Assembly: GCA_019112765.1 (NCBI GenBank)
Contig: DXIU01000008.1
Span: 1-37,213 of the forward strand
Length of the DNA stretch: 37,213 nucleotides
DNA from: Candidatus Mediterraneibacter norwichensis
Lineage (GTDB): Bacteria; Bacillota; Clostridia; Lachnospirales; Lachnospiraceae
Direction of reading: 5' to 3'
Shown: in pieces, positions 16,021-22,702 of the stretch
How the letters are laid out: each line of letters begins with the position of its first letter
Numbering within the stretch: position 1 is the stretch's first letter
Made by a program: the position numbers and the translations under genes
The notes under the pieces: model-generated
Seen by the model: the letters and a program-made list of their open reading frames with translations, nothing else
Databases searched by the model: none
What the model was told of the DNA's origin: nothing

Positions 16021-17457
16021 CTACTGTTCCTCCAGAAGTTCCTTTATCATCTTTGTCACAGACGCCGGGTCTGCTTTTCCCTTCAGAGCCCGCATGGACT
16101 GTCCCATAAGCGCGCCGAAAGCTTTCTGCTTTCCGCCCTTATAGTCAGCCACAGCCTGCGGATTATCAGCAAGCACCTTCTCAACCGCTTCTTTTAAGGC
16201 GCCTTCATCATTTACAGTCTTAAGGCCCTGTTCTTCCACGTATTTTTCCGGGTCCACATTATCTGTGAAGATCTTCTCAAATACTTTTTTCGCCACAGAA
16301 CTGCTGATCGTTCCCTCATCTGCCAGATCGATCAGCTTTGCCAGATTCTCCGGGGAAAATGCCAGCTCCTCCGCCTCCATTCCCCTCTCCTTCATCAGGC
16401 GGAACATTTCTCCCATAATCCAGTTGGATACCTTCTTCGGTTTGCCGCAAAGTTCCACGGTCTTTTCGAAAAGATCCGCAACTTTCTTGGATTCGGTAAT
16501 CAGCTCCGCATCATACCGGGGAATATCAAACTCCCTGCTGTATCTTTCCAGCTTTTCCGGGCGCAGTTCCGGCTGCCGTGCCTTCACTTCACGAATCCAT
16601 TCATCGGAAATTACGACAGGCACCAGATCCGGTTCCGGAAAATAACGGTAATCCTGGGCGTCTTCCTTGGAGCGCATCGCATAGGAGCTTTCTTTATTAT
16701 CATCCCAGCGCCTGGTCTCCTGCACGACTTCTTTTCCTGCTTCCAGAAGTTCAATCTGACGGGCCCTTTCTCCTTCAATGGCATGGGCAATGGCTTTAAA
16801 TGAGTTCAGGTTTTTCATCTCAGTTCTTGTGCCCAGTTCCTCTGTGCCGGCTCTGCGCACCGAAAGGTTTACATCCGCCCTCATAGATCCTTCCTGCAGC
16901 TTGCAGTCCGATACGCCCAGGTACTGAGCAGTCATCCGCAGTTTTTCCAGGTATGCGATTACTTCGTCAGAGGAACGCATATCCGGCTCTGACACAATCT
17001 CAACCAGGGGCACGCCGCTGCGGTTATAATCTACAAGGGAGGTGTCATCCCACTCATCATGGACCAGTTTTCCGGCGTCCTCTTCCATATGCATTTCATG
17101 AATCCGCACACTCTTCTTCCCTGCCGCCGTCTCAATTTCTACGAAACCGTCTCTTGCGATGGGGAGATAGAGCTGCGAGATCTGATAGTTCTGGGGATTA
17201 TCCGGATAGAAATAGTTCTTCCGGTCAAACTTGCACACCTGTGTTATTCTGCAGTTTGTGGCAAGTCCCAGCGCCATGGCATATTCCACCACTTTTTTAT
17301 TCAGCACCGGAAGGGAGCCCGGCATACCCGTACACACCGGACAGGTGTGGGTATTCGGCGCGCTTCCGAATTCTGTACTGCAGCCGCAGAAGATTTTTGT
17401 CTTTGTCGCCAGCTCGATATGAACTTCAAGTCCGATCACGGTCTCATACTGTGCCAT
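16021..17457 (-). CDS. gatB: Asp/Glu-tRNA amidotransferase subunit B
   Basis: GatB binds mis-acylated Asp-tRNA(Asn) or Glu-tRNA(Gln) and activates it before amide transfer. The 478-residue protein has ETVIGLEVHIEL at the start, a zinc-type C-x-C...C-x2-C set (Cys24/26/39/42), RVGSMRADVNLSVR-like GSMRADVNLSVR, and the C-terminal GatB/YqeY helical domain ending in KGKADPASV. Length is normal. The gene begins 2 bases after the gatA stop and its GGAGGTGG ribosome site lies inside gatA, so expression is coupled. With the archaeal-type AspRS at the head of the operon, Asn-tRNA synthesis is at least one role. Confidence 0.97.
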   Translation of the reverse strand: MAQYETVIGLEVHIELATKTKIFCGCSTEFGSAPNTHTCPVCTGMPGSLPVLNKKVVEYAMALGLATNCRITQVCKFDRKNYFYPDNPQNYQISQLYLPIARDGFVEIETAAGKKSVRIHEMHMEEDAGKLVHDEWDDTSLVDYNRSGVPLVEIVSEPDMRSSDEVIAYLEKLRMTAQYLGVSDCKLQEGSMRADVNLSVRRAGTEELGTRTEMKNLNSFKAIAHAIEGERARQIELLEAGKEVVQETRRWDDNKESSYAMRSKEDAQDYRYFPEPDLVPVVISDEWIREVKARQPELRPEKLERYSREFDIPRYDAELITESKKVADLFEKTVELCGKPKKVSNWIMGEMFRLMKERGMEAEELAFSPENLAKLIDLADEGTISSSVAKKVFEKIFTDNVDPEKYVEEQGLKTVNDEGALKEAVEKVLADNPQAVADYKGGKQKAFGALMGQSMRALKGKADPASVTKMIKELLEEQ

Positions 17458-17459
17458 GA

Positions 17460-18956
17460 TCAGCCCACCTCCTTTCCGGTCTCCATGGCCGCTCTGATAT
17501 CTGCCATCTTTTCATACTGTTTGCCTGTCGCGCACTCATAAGTGTATGCTGCGCGGATCAGGGTTTTCTCATCAAATGCATTTCCGATCAGCTGCATGCC
17601 AATGGGCAGTCCTTCTTTATCTTTCCCGACAGGTATGGTCATGCCCGGCAGCCCGGCAAGATTTACGGAAATGGTGTAAATATCTCCCAGGTACATTTTC
17701 AGCGGATCGCTCAGACTCTCTCCCAGCTTCGGTGCTGTGGTGGGAGCCGCCGGTCCGAGAATCAGATCGTATTTCTCAAAAGCCTTGTCAAACTCCTTTT
17801 TTATCAGGGCTTTTGTCCGGAGCGCTTTCAGATAATATGCATCATAATATCCGGAACTCAGGACAAAGGAGCCCAGCATAATCCGCCGCTTCACCTCCGG
17901 ACCGAACCCTTCTGACCGGGTCTTTTTATACATATTGTGCAGCCCTTCGTAGTTTTCTGTCCGGTATCCGTATTTTACGCCGTCAAACCGTTCCAGGTTG
18001 GAACTCGCCTCCGCTGAGGCAATGGTATAGTAGGCCGGAATCGCATATTTTACAAGTCCAAGATCGAACGTCTCTACAGATGCGCCCTTTTCTTCCAGAA
18101 CTTTTGCCGCGTCCTGCACCGCCTGACGCACTTCCGGATCCAGGCCTTCCCCGATATAATCTCCCGGGATTCCGATCTTCAGCTCTTTGACGTCCTCTGT
18201 CAGGGCGCTCATGAAATCGCAGTCTTTTCTCTCAACAGATGTACTGTCCTTCGGGTCGTGGGAGGCAATCGCCTCAAGAAACGCCGCGCAGTCCGATACA
18301 TCCTTCGCAACCGGACCGATCTGATCCAGTGAGGATCCGTATGCAATCAGTCCGTATCTGGAAACCGTTCCGTATGTGGGTTTCAGGCCCACTACGCCGC
18401 AGAAGGAACTTGGCTGCCTTATTGAGCCGCCGGTGTCAGATCCCAGCGCGCCGAAACACTCGCCTGCCGCCACTGCCGCACAGGATCCGCCGGATGATCC
18501 CCCCGGAACATGTTCCGTATTGTGGGGATTTCTTGTAGGGCCGTAATAAGAAGTCTCTGTAGTACTTCCCATGGCAAATTCATCCATATTTGTCTTGCCC
18601 AGGATCACTGCTCCTGCCTTCCGCAGATTCTCAACTGCCTGCGCCGTGTATGTGGGTCTGAATCCGGAAAGAATCCGGGAACTGCAGGTGGTAAGCTGGC
18701 CCTTAATGCACATATTGTCTTTTATGGCTACCGGCACACCTGCCAGCGGACCGGTCAGCTCTCCCGCATCAATCTTTTTCTGGACTTCTTCCGCCTGCGC
18801 GTATGCTCCTTCCTCGTCCAGCGTTACATAACTGTTTATTGCCGGTTCCGCCTCTTTTGCCCGGTCAAGCGCCGCTTTTACGGCATCTTTTACCTTGATC
18901 TCCCCGGCTTTTATTTTTTCTGACAGCTCTAAGGCTGTAAGTTCTAATATTTTCAT
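17460..18956 (-). CDS. gatA: Asp/Glu-tRNA amidotransferase subunit A
   Basis: GatA hydrolyses glutamine and passes ammonia to GatB. The 498-residue amidase shows the Ser-cisSer-Lys triad in canonical places: Lys79 in PVAIKDNMCIKG, Ser154 in PGGSSGGS, and Ser178 in SDTGGSIRQP. Length is normal and no residue is missing. It is 35 bases downstream of gatC and abuts gatB. The ATG at 18956 has an AAAGGCGG site about 8 bases away. Confidence 0.97.
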   Translation of the reverse strand: MKILELTALELSEKIKAGEIKVKDAVKAALDRAKEAEPAINSYVTLDEEGAYAQAEEVQKKIDAGELTGPLAGVPVAIKDNMCIKGQLTTCSSRILSGFRPTYTAQAVENLRKAGAVILGKTNMDEFAMGSTTETSYYGPTRNPHNTEHVPGGSSGGSCAAVAAGECFGALGSDTGGSIRQPSSFCGVVGLKPTYGTVSRYGLIAYGSSLDQIGPVAKDVSDCAAFLEAIASHDPKDSTSVERKDCDFMSALTEDVKELKIGIPGDYIGEGLDPEVRQAVQDAAKVLEEKGASVETFDLGLVKYAIPAYYTIASAEASSNLERFDGVKYGYRTENYEGLHNMYKKTRSEGFGPEVKRRIMLGSFVLSSGYYDAYYLKALRTKALIKKEFDKAFEKYDLILGPAAPTTAPKLGESLSDPLKMYLGDIYTISVNLAGLPGMTIPVGKDKEGLPIGMQLIGNAFDEKTLIRAAYTYECATGKQYEKMADIRAAMETGKEVG

Positions 18957-18991
18957 ATACCATGCCGCCTTTCCTGATATCTCTGCCCGCT

Positions 18992-19285
18992 TTATCCGAT
19001 CGTTCTCGGTACTTCGAAGCTGTCTTCCTTTCTCTGGGGCGCATTTGCCAGAGTTTCTTCTCTGCCGTCGCCGTTTGTCACCACATCCTCGCGGAACACA
19101 TTATTTACCGGAAACACGTGAGACATAGGTTCAATTCCGGTTGTATCCAGTTCATTTAATGTGTCGATATAATCCAGCATCTTTTCCATATCCGCTTTGG
19201 CTTCTTCTTTTTCTTCATCCGACAGCTCCAGCTTTGCAAGAATTCCCACGTATTCGATTGTCTCGTCTGATATTTTGTTTGCCAT
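18992..19285 (-). CDS. gatC: Asp/Glu-tRNA amidotransferase subunit C
   Basis: GatC is the small belt-like subunit that wraps GatA and stabilises the GatAB interface. The 97-residue protein starts [21 protein letters not shown] and ends with the typical [17 protein letters not shown] and FEVPRTIG. Two ATGs lie 6 bases apart. The second (19285) is at proper distance from GGAG, whereas the first is too close, so it is chosen. Order is aspS-gatC-gatA-gatB. Confidence 0.95.
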
Positions 19286-19345
19286 ATCCATCTCTCCTTA
19301 TCTGGCTGAACTTCTTTTACACATATGCCGGCTTTCACGCCCCTG

Positions 19346-20677
19346 TTATGGCTCCAGCCTGCTCATATCCCTCGGAAACAGTGTCGTTTCCCGGACATTA
19401 TCATCACCGGTCAGTTTCATGGTCAGACGCTCAAGGCCGATTCCCAGTCCTCCGTGAGGCGGCATGCCGTATTTGAATGCGCTCAGATACTGCTCCATTC
19501 CTTCGTCTGTCATTCCCCGCTGTTCCATTTTTTCCAGAAGGCTGCGGTAATCATGGATACGCTGGCCTCCTGTGGTGATCTCCATCCCCCGGAACAAAAG
19601 ATCAAAGCTCAGTGTGTATGTGGGATCCTCCGGATCGTCCATGGCATAGAACGGACGTTTTCTGGACGGATAATGTGTGACAAATACAAAGTCAGCATCC
19701 CACTTTTCCTTTGCATATCTGCTGATCAGCACTTCTTCCTCCGGCTCCAGATCATACGGGCTTCTTATCTTCCGTCCGTACTCTTCCGACACCAGACGTT
19801 TAATCTCATCAAACCGCACTGCCGGGATCTGGTCGGTTTTCGGAATCTCAACTCCCAGGATCCGCAGTTCCCGCGCGTATTCCTTTTCGAGAAGCGCCAT
19901 TGTGTACTGCAGATATCCGGTTTCCATTGCCATAATATCTTCAAAACTGTCAATATAGCCCATCTCAAAATCAAGGCTTGTATATTCATTCAGGTGTCTC
20001 TTTGTGTTGTGTTTCTCCGCCCGGAATACCGGCGCCGTCTCAAACACTCTGTCAAAGACTCCTACCATCATCTGTTTATAAAACTGAGGACTCTGCTGGA
20101 GAACCGCCGGTCTGTGGAAATACTCCAGACGGAACAGGTTCGCTCCTCCTTCCGCGCTCTTCGCGCCGATCTTCGGCGTGTGTATTTCTGTAAATCCTTC
20201 TCCGTACAGAAAATCCCGGAATCCTCTTACAAGTCCCTCCTGGATACGGAATCTTGCCCGCTCCCGGAGATTGCGAAGAGAAATGGGACGGTAGTTCAGC
20301 TTTGCCTCCAGAGAAGTGTTCATTTTCCATTTTGCAATGGGCAGAGGCATGGGCGCCGCAGGCTCGCTTAAAATACGGATTTCCCGCAGACGGATCTCAA
20401 TTCCGTGGGGCGCTTTTCCGGACGCCGCGACAACACCTGTTACTTCCACGGACGCAGCCTCTTTTACATCCTTCAGATCAAATCCCGCCTCGCCTTTCTC
20501 ATACACGCACTGTATGAGACCGTCCCGCCTGCGCAGGATCACAAAGGCTACGGTTCCCATGTCGCGGATTGTGTGCACCGCGCCGCTGACTTTTACGGTC
20601 TGCCCTTTTACCTCTTCCTTCAGCAGTTCATCAAGTTCCAGACATTCTGATTTTTTTACACCTTTTACGATTTCCAT
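19346..20677 (-). CDS. aspS: Archaeal-type (probably non-discriminating) aspartyl-tRNA synthetase
   Basis: The 443-residue class II synthetase lacks the bacterial GAD insertion (standard bacterial AspRS is about 590 residues) and so is the archaeal/eukaryotic form. It shows motif 2 (FRAEKHNTKRHLNEYTSLDF) and motif 3 (GGLGIGLERL) and an N-terminal OB anticodon domain. His35 (GAVHTIRD) and Pro90 (GKAPHGIEI) correspond, as I recall, to the His/Pro pair linked with relaxed tRNA recognition, so it probably charges both tRNA(Asp) and tRNA(Asn). Asp-tRNA(Asn) is then amidated by GatCAB, encoded next. A T-box leader precedes it. The frame extends 13 codons upstream, but the ATG at 20677 follows GGAGAAGG and starts the conserved part. 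Confidence 0.93.
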   Translation of the reverse strand: MEIVKGVKKSECLELDELLKEEVKGQTVKVSGAVHTIRDMGTVAFVILRRRDGLIQCVYEKGEAGFDLKDVKEAASVEVTGVVAASGKAPHGIEIRLREIRILSEPAAPMPLPIAKWKMNTSLEAKLNYRPISLRNLRERARFRIQEGLVRGFRDFLYGEGFTEIHTPKIGAKSAEGGANLFRLEYFHRPAVLQQSPQFYKQMMVGVFDRVFETAPVFRAEKHNTKRHLNEYTSLDFEMGYIDSFEDIMAMETGYLQYTMALLEKEYARELRILGVEIPKTDQIPAVRFDEIKRLVSEEYGRKIRSPYDLEPEEEVLISRYAKEKWDADFVFVTHYPSRKRPFYAMDDPEDPTYTLSFDLLFRGMEITTGGQRIHDYRSLLEKMEQRGMTDEGMEQYLSAFKYGMPPHGGLGIGLERLTMKLTGDDNVRETTLFPRDMSRLEP

Positions 20678-20760
20678 TTTTCCTTCTCCTTTCATCTGAC
20701 ACGCCGTACTTTCCACGGCACTATGATATACCCTTATGGTATTTCAGATGCGCATCCCGG

Positions 20761-20798
20761 GAAAAAGAAAGTCCCGGGATACTTAAGTATCCCGGGAC
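20761..20798 (-). terminator. T-box regulated terminator
   Basis: A 28-bp perfect palindrome at 20771-20798 (GTCCCGGGAT arms) is followed on the minus strand by TTTCTTTTTC. It is the OFF-state structure competing with the T-box antiterminator. Confidence 0.92.
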
Positions 20799-20860
20799 GG
20801 AAATTATCAAGATAAAATCCGCGGTACCACCCGCATTGAACCTTACGCGCCAGAGCCCGG

Positions 20861-20893
20861 CCTGCGCCTTACGGCTTGCTCTCGTCAAGTGCT
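20861..20893. repeat. 33-bp direct repeat, copy A (inside T-box leader)
   Basis: It is identical to 20984-21016 over 33 bases (starting CCTGCGCCTTACGGCTTGCT), at an offset of 123 bases. In the minus-strand RNA it contains a GCC-GTAA-GGC mini-hairpin with a GNRA tetraloop. Confidence 0.95.
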
Positions 20894-20905
20894 GTGCCCT
20901 GAGAA

Positions 20906-20963
20906 GTTCCGTTCGCTAACCTCAGGCTTCGCCTCCGGCTCGCCTTCGCTAATCTCACGGAAC
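20906..20963. repeat. Nested palindrome with 13-bp direct repeats between the 33-bp copies
   Basis: GTTCCG (20906-20911) pairs with CGGAAC (20958-20963). Inside are two near-identical 13-mers, TTCGCTAACCTCA (20912-20924) and TTCGCTAATCTCA (20945-20957), and GC-rich GGCTTCGCC/GGCTCGCC words. The structure is dense and hierarchical, unlike known T-box domains. Confidence 0.85.
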
Positions 20964-20983
20964 AACCTCGCACTAGGACTCGA

Positions 20984-21016
20984 CCTGCGCCTTACGGCTT
21001 GCTCTCGTCAAGTGCT
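20984..21016. repeat. 33-bp direct repeat, copy B (inside T-box leader)
   Basis: It is identical to copy A. On the RNA, AGUGC just after this copy (plus-strand 20970-20974) can pair with GCACU at its start, so this copy can close as its own hairpin. Copy A instead has GAGAGC...GCUCU pairing with its own flank. Confidence 0.95.
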
Positions 21017-21225
21017 TTCGGTTCCACTCTCTGCATGGTAACGGATGCTTCTCCGTACCGCCCTACTCAGGTTCAGGCGGTCAGCTCCCAAGTGTTCCCT
21101 TAGTTTCCTCCGCTGTCCGGCGCTCTCAGTCGGTGACGCCAACTTCCTGTCAGTTTCTGAAAACCAGAGTCTTGTTCCCAGCCTTTCGCTATTTCAACAC
21201 TTTAGTCTGTTAAAATATGTTTCCA

Positions 21226-21254
21226 ATATTACCACACCGTTCTTTATATTGCAA
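21226..21254 (-). promoter_or_regulatory. Promoter of the aspS-gatCAB operon
   Basis: On the minus strand TTGCAA (21249-21254) and TAATAT (21226-21231) are 17 bases apart, giving a start near 21219 at the beginning of the T-box leader. Confidence 0.75.
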
Positions 21255-21369
21255 GAACTTTTTCAACTTTTTATTTCCTTTTTGCAGTTCTGTTTTTAAT
21301 TTCCTGCAAAACTTCCCGACAAACTGTTATTTTATACTATTTTGCCCGGATATATTGATATGTATACAC

Positions 21370-21401
21370 AAACGTCCTGCAGAAATTTCTGCAGGACGTT
21401 T
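21370..21401. terminator. Palindromic terminator after the S41 protease gene
   Basis: A perfect 32-base palindrome (AAACGTCCTGCAGAAA and its complement) lies 9 bases past the stop of the protease gene. The T-tract after it on the minus strand is weak (TTTGTGTAT), so efficiency is uncertain. Confidence 0.7.
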
Positions 21402-21409
21402 TTCACGGC

Positions 21410-22702
21410 TTACTGTTTCAGCTGTTCGTTCAGAACTTCCACCGCTTTATCGAGCTGATTATCCGCCTCCGGATTCTTTTCGTCGTACTCATATTCAACT
21501 TCCACATCCGGGGTCACACCGGTACCGTTGATGCTCCTTCCGCTGGGAGTGTAGTATTCCGCAATAGTCACTTTCAGGCAGGTTCCGTCTCCCAGACTGA
21601 TCAGCTGCTGGACCACGCCCTTTCCATAAGTGGTAGTTCCCACAATCGTTCCTGTGCCATAATCCTGAACTGCGCCGCTGAAAATTTCCGAAGCGCTTGC
21701 ACTGTAACCATTTACAAGGACGGCTAACGGTTTGGTAAACTCATTTTCACCATCACATGTCATTTCCTCTGTATTTCCATTTTTATCTTTGATCGATATG
21801 ATCGGACCCTCCGGCAGAAGAAGTTTCAGCATATCTGTCACAGTATCCACATTTCCGCCGGGATTATTTCTCAGATCAATGATCAGACCCTGCATATCCT
21901 GTGCCTCCAGATCATCCAGCGCGGTTTTGAACTGATCGTAGGTCACATCATCAAATTCACTGACCGAAATATACCCCAGCTGTCCGTCCAGCATACGGTA
22001 CTCTACTGTCTGTACTTCTATCGTATCCCGCACGGCGGCCAGGTCAACTTCATCTCCGTCCCGAAGCACTGTCAGCGTAACTTCAGTCCCTCTCTCGCCT
22101 TTCACATAGGACACTACCGTATTCAGATCTTCCCCCTGAATATCTCTTCCGTCTACTTCCAGCAGGATGTCGTCCACCTGCATTCCCGCCTTATCCGCGG
22201 GGGAATCCTCGTAAATATTTGTTACAGTAATCGTACCGTCTGTACCCTGGCTCATAGTAACACCGATTCCACTGAACTCACCGCTGGTAGATTCGAAAAG
22301 AGCCTGGGTCTCCTCTTCATCATAATATTCGGTATAAGGGTCTCCCAGAGCCTCTGTATAACCGGAATATAATCCTTCTACCAGCGCGTCCCCGTCGATC
22401 TCATCTTCATAGAGATAATACTCTTCAATCAGGTTATCAATAACATCCAGTTTTTCCTCCACGCTTCCGGCCGAAGTACCTGAAGATCCCAGACCGATTC
22501 CGGGAATTGTCTCTGTAAGAAAACTTCTGATTCCCAGCACTGCTGCAAAGAGCACCACAGTCCCGGTTACACCTGCCAGCACACCTGCTCCGAACCGGCT
22601 GCCCCGCTTTCCGGCTCCGCGCCCGGAAACCGGAGGATCCGGCCGCAGGTCCTCCATGCTGTCCGTATCCGTTCTGTCTAAATCCCTTCTGTTTTCGTCC
22701 AT
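21410..22702 (-). CDS. S41-family C-terminal processing peptidase (CtpA/CtpB-like)
   Basis: This is a membrane-anchored serine protease acting outside the cytoplasmic membrane. The 430 residues comprise a charged cytosolic N-terminus (1-38), one membrane segment (about 40-60), a linker helix region, a PDZ domain (about 139-225, with GIGVTM and SPADKAGMQVDDILLEVDG), and the S41 core. Catalytic residues are Ser334 or Ser336 in NGYSASASE and Lys361 in TTYGKGVVQQ. The family includes CtpA and the sporulation protease CtpB. It follows ftsX by 165 bases, and FtsEX often pairs with cell-wall hydrolases, but a link to this protease is only suggested by position. Confidence 0.93.
   Translation of the reverse strand: MDENRRDLDRTDTDSMEDLRPDPPVSGRGAGKRGSRFGAGVLAGVTGTVVLFAAVLGIRSFLTETIPGIGLGSSGTSAGSVEEKLDVIDNLIEEYYLYEDEIDGDALVEGLYSGYTEALGDPYTEYYDEEETQALFESTSGEFSGIGVTMSQGTDGTITVTNIYEDSPADKAGMQVDDILLEVDGRDIQGEDLNTVVSYVKGERGTEVTLTVLRDGDEVDLAAVRDTIEVQTVEYRMLDGQLGYISVSEFDDVTYDQFKTALDDLEAQDMQGLIIDLRNNPGGNVDTVTDMLKLLLPEGPIISIKDKNGNTEEMTCDGENEFTKPLAVLVNGYSASASEIFSGAVQDYGTGTIVGTTTYGKGVVQQLISLGDGTCLKVTIAEYYTPSGRSINGTGVTPDVEVEYEYDEKNPEADNQLDKAVEVLNEQLKQ

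Follow-up and report, generated by a model that had tools for sequence, protein, structure and literature searches.

A two-codon Asp/Asn T-box is known from Clostridium. In T-box riboswitches, Stem III is defined by its flanks, in the order 5'-RRRxG-Stem III-AA-3', and forms one unit with the antiterminator; the F-box, of which CCGUCA is an example, belongs to the stem IIA/B pseudoknot (PMC7583486). Upstream of trp in pneumococci, two T-boxes have a BOX element between them, and these riboswitches were inferred to be functional (PMC3049150); the link between BOX and T-boxes is also mentioned in a review of MITEs (PMC10969869). Repeats of the REP type occur between co-directional genes and are regarded as transcribed RNA elements (PMC3733652). 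Further, thousands of candidate structured RNAs have been described from human microbiomes (PMC8040213).

The window analyzed in this report, i.e. the whole stretch of 37,213 nucleotides from Candidatus Mediterraneibacter norwichensis, is contig C29 of a genome assembly of 2.6 Mb in 137 contigs, and its AspS shares 92% identity with proteins from several members of Mediterraneibacter, M. catenae included. A block of repeats lies in the leader of its aspS-gatCAB operon. We think that an intergenic hairpin repeat, dispersed in Lachnospiraceae, has expanded locally in the Stem III loop of an Asn T-box to give this block, and we assign this reading a probability of about three in four.

The T-box of the aspS-gatCAB operon

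The operon and the signals of its leader are as follows.

16021..19291, minus strand: gatC, gatA and gatB, Asp-tRNA(Asn) amidotransferase (NCBIfam TIGR00135, TIGR00132 and TIGR00133, above cut-offs)
19346..20677, minus strand: aspS, non-discriminating aspartate--tRNA(Asn) ligase (NCBIfam TIGR00458, 418 bits, cut-off 368.4)
20771..20798, minus strand: intrinsic terminator, with a perfect inverted repeat of 14 nt and a U-rich tail after it
20790..21188, minus strand: T-box leader (RF00230) of aspS-gatC-gatA-gatB (cmscan 51.5 bits, E 3.1e-10)
20794..20835, minus strand: antiterminator, with the T-box bulge UGGUACC at 20829-20823
20837-20836, minus strand: conserved AA after Stem III
20842-20838, minus strand: 3' arm of Stem III, GGUUC
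21024-21020, minus strand: 5' arm of the true Stem III, GAACC (flank definition of PMC7583486)
21029-21025, minus strand: purine string RRRxG, here GAGUG (definition of PMC7583486)
21039..21057, minus strand: stem IIA/B (F-box) hairpin UACGGAGAAGCAUCCGUUA, which carries CCGUUA (RF00230 alignment and the definition of the T-box review)
21094..21096, minus strand: putative specifier AAC (Asn), from alignment to the Rfam consensus

By their family assignments, the non-discriminating AspRS and GatC, GatA and GatB jointly make Asn-tRNA(Asn). RF00230 is matched over its full length (model positions 1-219) on the minus strand from 21188 to 20790, and the T-box bulge UGGNACC, the antiterminator and a competing terminator were all found in the leader. 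The RRRxG-Stem III-AA arrangement with a paired foot is present as judged by sequence and covariation, although a fold of the single sequence with the block disagrees. The initial annotation had called a hairpin at 21038-21060 "Stem III-like"; it is really the F-box element of stem IIA/B. The block does lie inside the T-box leader, as had been claimed, but it is not a spacer placed after Stem III: its host is the loop of Stem III. A leader length of 459 nt, also proposed earlier, could not be confirmed because the promoter scan upstream of aspS gave none at the scanner's threshold. No other of the genome's 15 T-box matches (E<=10) is as long as the RF00230 match of this leader, which by itself covers 399 nt.

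The score of the window's T-box, 51.5 bits, is below the Rfam gathering score of 93, which is a curation cut-off and no anatomical feature; five orthologous leaders that are free of the block (72.1-83.5 bits) fall below it likewise. Twelve aspS leaders were scanned and 11 gave a match (L022, L023, L025, L027, L031, L035, L050, L053, L056, L060 and L062), with scores of 51.5-68.1 bits in the five multi-hairpin leaders vs. 68.6-83.5 bits in the six with at most one hairpin. Since all 11, block or no block, are under the gathering cut-off, automatic annotation may overlook this group of aspS T-boxes.

These scores also bear on the possibility that the T-box is degenerating, with Stem III disrupted by the block and the leader gradually losing control. 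The window has the lowest score of the 11 matching leaders, the G023 leader, which has two repeat units, had no RF00230 match at 1e-5, and RNAfold loses the Stem III foot when the block is included. Against such decay, the specifier, F-box, RRRxG, AA, T-box bulge, antiterminator and 14-nt terminator repeat are all present in the window, and G005, G023, G026 and L060 likewise retain CAATGCGGGTGGTACCGCG. We regard degeneration as quite improbable.

No known Rfam family accounts convincingly for the block. A low-threshold scan of 20600-21450 returned 18 matches, among which the T-box alone was accepted; those to NsiR1 (20763-20829) and STnc310 (21354-21410) are terminator-like hairpins outside the block. 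The weak match to STnc310 arises from a perfect 15+15-nt inverted repeat at 21371-21400, which is probably the terminator of an S41 peptidase gene.

Repeats and hairpins of the block

Within the Stem III loop, the following elements were delimited.

20843..21019, minus strand: 177-nt insert carried by Stem III in its terminal loop; no other hairpin stands between Stem III and the antiterminator (RF00230 alignment)
20966..21018, minus strand: H1, a hairpin of the long-loop class with tandem G.A, which holds the 33-mer 20984-21016 (model R1, 17.7 bits, E 0.0026 in the window)
20906..20963, minus strand: H2, a GUUCCG/CGGAAC outer stem with a nested core hairpin (R1 match 20909-20959, 19.2 bits, E 0.00088)
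20846..20893, minus strand: H3, the truncated start of a second 123-nt unit, which holds the 33-mer 20861-20893 (repeat comparison)

Repeat comparison bore out the earlier claim of two identical 33-bp direct repeats at an offset of 123: the 33-mers at 20861-20893 and 20984-21016 have no exact extension, and both lie inside a 48-nt direct repeat of 88% identity (20846-20893 and 20969-21016). The GTTCCG/CGGAAC hairpin (20963-20906) and its two near-identical 13-mers, GAGATTAGCGAAG and GAGGTTAGCGAAC, were found again by eye, and the outer stem of H2 has a pairing probability of 0.97-1.0 in RNAfold. Each 33-mer stands at the head of a copy of a 123-nt unit made of two hairpins, H1 and H2; one copy is full and the other truncated. 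H3 repeats the first part of H1 at the offset of 123 nt; its 3' half has diverged, and H3 therefore folds differently from H1. The covariance model R1, introduced below, has no match to H3 in the 37-kb window.

Similar units are present in relatives. G023 carries two complete H1+H2 units in tandem, 123 nt apart, and L060 has a unit pair at an offset of 120. The 33-nt stretches that we compared differ at one of 33 positions within each of the window genome, G023 and L060, the L060 pair has an ungapped identity of 23/33 to the window pair (a figure lowered by indels), and the unit copies of G000 and G023 are alike. The simplest reading is tandem duplication with homogenization. An assembly error that created the second copy in the window is unlikely, because near-identical copies with a period of 120-123 occur in three genomes.

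The Stem III foot and its hypervariable loop

The first four pairs of the Stem III foot are all formed in 72 of 82 usable distinct leaders, a set that was reached from 99 leaders by removing three without the motif or F-box, five without GAGNGG and nine duplicates. L064, L072, L077 and L122 were dropped, as the T-box motif is lacking there, and so was the contig-edge leader of G013, with 23 of 24 kept. Across 40 distinct combinations of arms, 153 of 160 pairs are standard, as compared with 94.6 +/- 5.8 and a maximum of 119 in 2000 shuffles; divergent arms include GACAGGUGUA/UAUACCUGUU and GAAAAUGGC/GCCAUUUUU. By this covariation, Stem III is real, and its foot closes the loop that bears the repeats.

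Loops of at least 100 nt are found in 10 of 30 Mediterraneibacter leaders vs. one of 52 others, where the genus was assigned by hand and the AspS tree puts one of the 30 (L070) outside Mediterraneibacter. Judged from these leaders, the Stem III loop is hypervariable while the landmarks of the T-box stay in place. A second variable site was noted in L038, L040, L041, L042, L043 and L050, in which the tip of stem II is lengthened (e.g. GAACAGATGCGGGAAATCCGGCATAAAGTAGG in G013).

A dispersed family of hairpins

Elsewhere in the genome of the window, the block has two matches, both in contig C70 and, by our reading, between pgk and tpiA; it also matches places in relatives. The hairpins have in common the core UURGC-GA-loop-GA-GCYUR, with a U.U mismatch and tandem G.A pairs. 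When 41 genomes of the genus were searched with the pattern TTRGCGAN{4,30}GAGCYTRG, 160 matches were obtained vs. 18 for the reversed control, and 37 of the 41 had at least one. An order-wide search of 295 genomes gave 176 matches vs. 20 controls (summed by hand) in 47 other genomes of the window's family, f1, which was taken as Lachnospiraceae. G068 leads these other family genomes with 38 matches vs. 0 for the control, and at least three matches are present in 16 of 48 family genomes, the window's own being counted. Outside the family, most genomes have 0 to 2 matches; G289 (8.8 Mb) has 19 vs. 3 for the control.

Pairing was also assessed by position in 88 distinct short-loop hairpins. Columns 5/31, which lie beside the part fixed by the pattern, form standard pairs in 82 of the 88 (61.8 expected), and the R/Y pair, itself limited by the pattern, does so in 86 (71.5 expected). 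The signal fades outward, with 49 standard pairs at 4/32 (41.9 expected) and 42 at 3/33 (31.6 expected). In the long-loop class, the inner helix is left unfixed by the pattern, and compensatory changes occur in all four of its pairs. An alignment of 34 rows has 89.2% of its cells paired vs. 75.7% after shuffling, a level reached in none of 500 shuffles, with the proviso that the rows were picked by the pattern, with a GC..GC filter added for long loops, and thus lean to pairing in the outer and innermost helices. The excess of pairs with double changes is weak (8 vs. 5.7 shuffled; 15 of 500 as high), and the number of further pair types is not above that of the shuffles (20 vs. 19.5; 268 of 500 as high).

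The covariance model, R1, was built from this alignment, in which the letters of the block were excluded and one row came from the genome's own pgk-tpiA gap. At E<=1, it matches only 20959-20909 (the core of H2) and 21018-20966 (H1) in the 37-kb window. Because a model without the letters of the block finds two of its three hairpins, the block's tie to the family is more than chance. Among the 41 genomes of the genus, including those that supplied rows of the model, R1 has 202 matches in 38 (E<=0.05 per genome; summed by hand), and the window's own genome has three. Thus, the expectation of many genomic copies held for the genus but not for the genome itself. The same hairpin recurs at multiple unrelated loci, as in a dispersed palindromic repeat.

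These results can be set against the idea that the block is purely a local tandem duplication with no tie to any dispersed family. Its appeal lies in the within-genome copies, which are nearly identical and have a period of 120-123 in three genomes. Related hairpins nevertheless stand between unrelated genes across the genus, and R1 finds the block without having been given its letters; we consider this idea extremely improbable. Local tandem duplication may still be the means by which the loop grew. The initial annotation had suggested a small mobile palindrome or a local duplication: a palindromic repeat and a local duplication are indeed present, and the hairpins recur in the genus. Mobilization by a RAYT transposase was rejected, as there were no matches to Y1_Tnp (PF01797) in the window's genome at E<=0.001.

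At aspS itself, R1 gave 33 matches (E<=0.1) in 70 loci, a scan that omitted, among others, L101-L131 and loci without a T-box motif. Of these matches, 28 fall in leaders (17 loci and 14 distinct leaders), all in the sense orientation by eye, and five fall outside the leader, in L089, L090, L095 and L096. Among the 14 other T-box loci of the genome, R1 had no match in the 11 that were searched (L017-L019 being left out).

Turnover of the loop among relatives

By eye, the leaders can be arranged in a growth series, from a single hairpin (G021 and L055) through three (the window, G005 and L060) to two full units (G023); R1 has no match at E<=0.1 in the leaders of G021 and L055. An AspS tree was made with 43 rows, which remained from 49 candidates once three duplicates, two rows that lacked an AspS match and the overly short G036 had been taken out. 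On this tree, loops of at least 100 nt (nine rows) need eight changes, seven of which are forced by strongly supported branches, and a single origin of the long loop is unsupported. Yet the scatter of the labels is no greater than chance: shuffled labels need 8.3 changes on average, and 247 of 500 shuffles are as low as eight.

On the tree, the window is sister to G022 and L058, which are apparently one genome and whose loop, 84 nt long, is unrelated; an R1 match is absent from the leaders of the sister rows L028/L058. M. catenae, with a loop of 27 nt, and G013, with one of 184 nt, are neighbors on the tree with support of 85/67. The tree and the differing loops of neighbors indicate, therefore, that the loop turns over between species. 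In G013, there are two different aspS leaders (L026 and L050), one of them cut by a contig end, which may represent two copies or a mixed assembly.

A new accessory RNA domain conserved at the aspS locus, the alternative offered in the initial annotation, is not supported by this variability between species and by the unrelated loop of the sister. We rejected it as a general description, given that loop content differs widely among leaders.

Folding and the state of the switch

In RNAfold, the Stem III foot has a probability of 0.00 with the block vs. 0.98-1.00 when a GAAA loop is substituted for it. If the block is present, the 5' arm is instead predicted to pair with GGUU at 20967-20964 (probability 0.86-0.97). 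The GGG/CCC pairing of the antiterminator is absent from both predictions, with and without the block, and for this reason the folds say little on function; further, RNAfold has no tRNA in its model and handles large multiloops poorly. We take the predicted loss of the foot as a warning and not as a verdict. The earlier statement that insertion had occurred without breaking the riboswitch is consistent with the intact T-box landmarks, but not with a predicted fold in which the 5' arm of Stem III mispairs with the block. Weighing the landmarks against the fold, we think that the T-box probably still works despite the block.

The same predictions could be read to mean that the T-box is tuned by the block, acting as a functional accessory RNA domain. 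Either the pairing of the H1 foot with the 5' arm of Stem III, in competition with the true partner, or added transcription time before the antiterminator would then alter the balance between termination and read-through. RNAfold's competing AACC/GGUU pairing in the window would fit this idea, as would a like GAACC...GAGGTTGTTCC arrangement in the sequences of G005, G023 and L060 and the uniform sense orientation of the 28 leader matches at aspS (sorted by eye). Loop content, which is widely different among species and short in some close relatives, argues against it, as does the absence of the hairpin from the 11 other T-box loci that were searched in the genome. Such tuning seems unlikely to us.

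We return to the local expansion of a dispersed repeat as the preferred reading. The repeats would have arrived by insertion or copying, and would then have grown through tandem duplication. Uncharged tRNA-Asn would pair with the AAC specifier and the UGGU bulge and stabilize the antiterminator, leading to transcription of aspS-gatCAB, whereas charged tRNA would allow the terminator to form. The Stem III loop may tolerate the repeats because the foot and the flanking purines hold the tRNA end, leaving the tip free to be long; we infer that the tip of Stem III is a harmless place for insertion.

Sites and orientation of other copies

Among the matches listed from the 160, 110 merged sites were classified with the aid of a simple codon-usage gene caller. 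Seventy-nine of the 110 are in the sense orientation between co-directional genes; the others comprise seven that are co-directional and antisense, four convergent, nine coding and 11 unassigned. Most of the nine coding-region sites look like chance pattern matches, at about the control rate, and the strong R1 match of L205 points to a true copy within what was called as a gene, perhaps wrongly.

The neighbors of the classified sites are mostly housekeeping genes. Those checked against NCBIfam/Pfam encode L11/L1, a phosphoglycerate kinase fragment/triose-phosphate isomerase, S8/L6, GroES/GroEL, GrpE/DnaK, L23/L2, SSB/S18, S10/L3, S13/S11, S12, an EF-type GTPase, S14/S8, thioredoxin, D-Ala ligase/Mur ligase, EF-Tu, ATP synthase D and S17; the remaining neighbors bear names that we presume from their protein ends. 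In L157-L266, the core hairpin lies in the sense orientation among ribosomal-protein, groESL, grpE-dnaK, pgk-tpiA, tuf, ddl-murF and other Mediterraneibacter clusters.

Counted by eye as distinct gaps among the matches listed, 22 are sense vs. three antisense (binomial p 1.6e-4), a count in which rplW-rplB stands in both classes and the rows are non-independent through shared ancestry. In the rplW-rplB gap, the hairpin is antisense in five genomes (L173, L212, L234, L244 and L252) and sense in other species. For G068, which belongs to another genus, 30 of the 38 copies were read by eye, and nine proved to be sense, nine antisense, nine convergent and three divergent. Some G068 copies (L277-L306) have the 24-nt core nested in a larger palindrome with the ends TTGCCAGGACA / TGTCCAGGCAA, as seen by eye. 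Thus, the family looks orientation-neutral in G068 and sense-biased in Mediterraneibacter.

The sense bias could stem from the replication strand, from selection against antisense hairpins or from an RNA function. The last of these might take the form of a functional cis-acting module of sense mRNA, rather than a mere parasite, marked by conserved tandem G.A pairs and a U.U mismatch and recognized as a target by some protein or nuclease; several genera of Lachnospiraceae would share it, and Mediterraneibacter would keep it between genes of its ribosomal, chaperone and glycolytic operons. We hold this to be doubtful. If true, repeated capture in Stem III would tie the sensing of Asn-tRNA to the post-transcriptional control exerted by the hairpin.

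Comparison with known systems

In the open literature, outside of which most subscription journals lie, we found no report on the hairpin family or on repeats inside Stem III. The hairpin could be among the candidate RNAs of PMC8040213. The locus differs from known cases in three respects: the repeat lies within Stem III of a single T-box, it recurs in several species, and the hairpin family is another one.

These features give the locus a wider interest. It offers a traceable insertion: at one orthologous T-box, a dispersed hairpin repeat recurs in the loop of Stem III. Relatives with and without the block amount to a natural experiment on how much RNA an aminoacylation-sensing domain tolerates, and a sense-biased family among core Mediterraneibacter operons is a testable candidate for a common element at the mRNA level.

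The leader belongs to the Stem II-containing, transcriptional type of T-box (RF00230), with specifier, F-box, RRRxG-Stem III-AA, bulge, antiterminator and terminator in the canonical order. Unlike in the usual RF00230 T-box, its Stem III loop measures 177 nt and is made of a dispersed repeat. By description, the pneumococcal BOX element is similar in being a modular, hairpin-forming intergenic repeat that is co-transcribed inside a T-box leader, but BOX separates two T-boxes, whereas the repeat in the window lies inside Stem III of a single T-box and recurs there in several species. With REP, ERIC and MITE elements, as portrayed in PMC3733652, PMC2267715 and PMC10969869, the family shares short palindromic units that are intergenic and often between co-directional genes, alternative complementary residues in the stem, and nested or clustered units. 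It differs from them in that the Mediterraneibacter family is low in copy number, strongly sense-biased and flanked by housekeeping genes, and in that no RAYT (Y1_Tnp) was found in the window's own genome. The block is best read as a repeat of the REP/BOX-like sort that is expanding in a riboswitch loop able to tolerate it.
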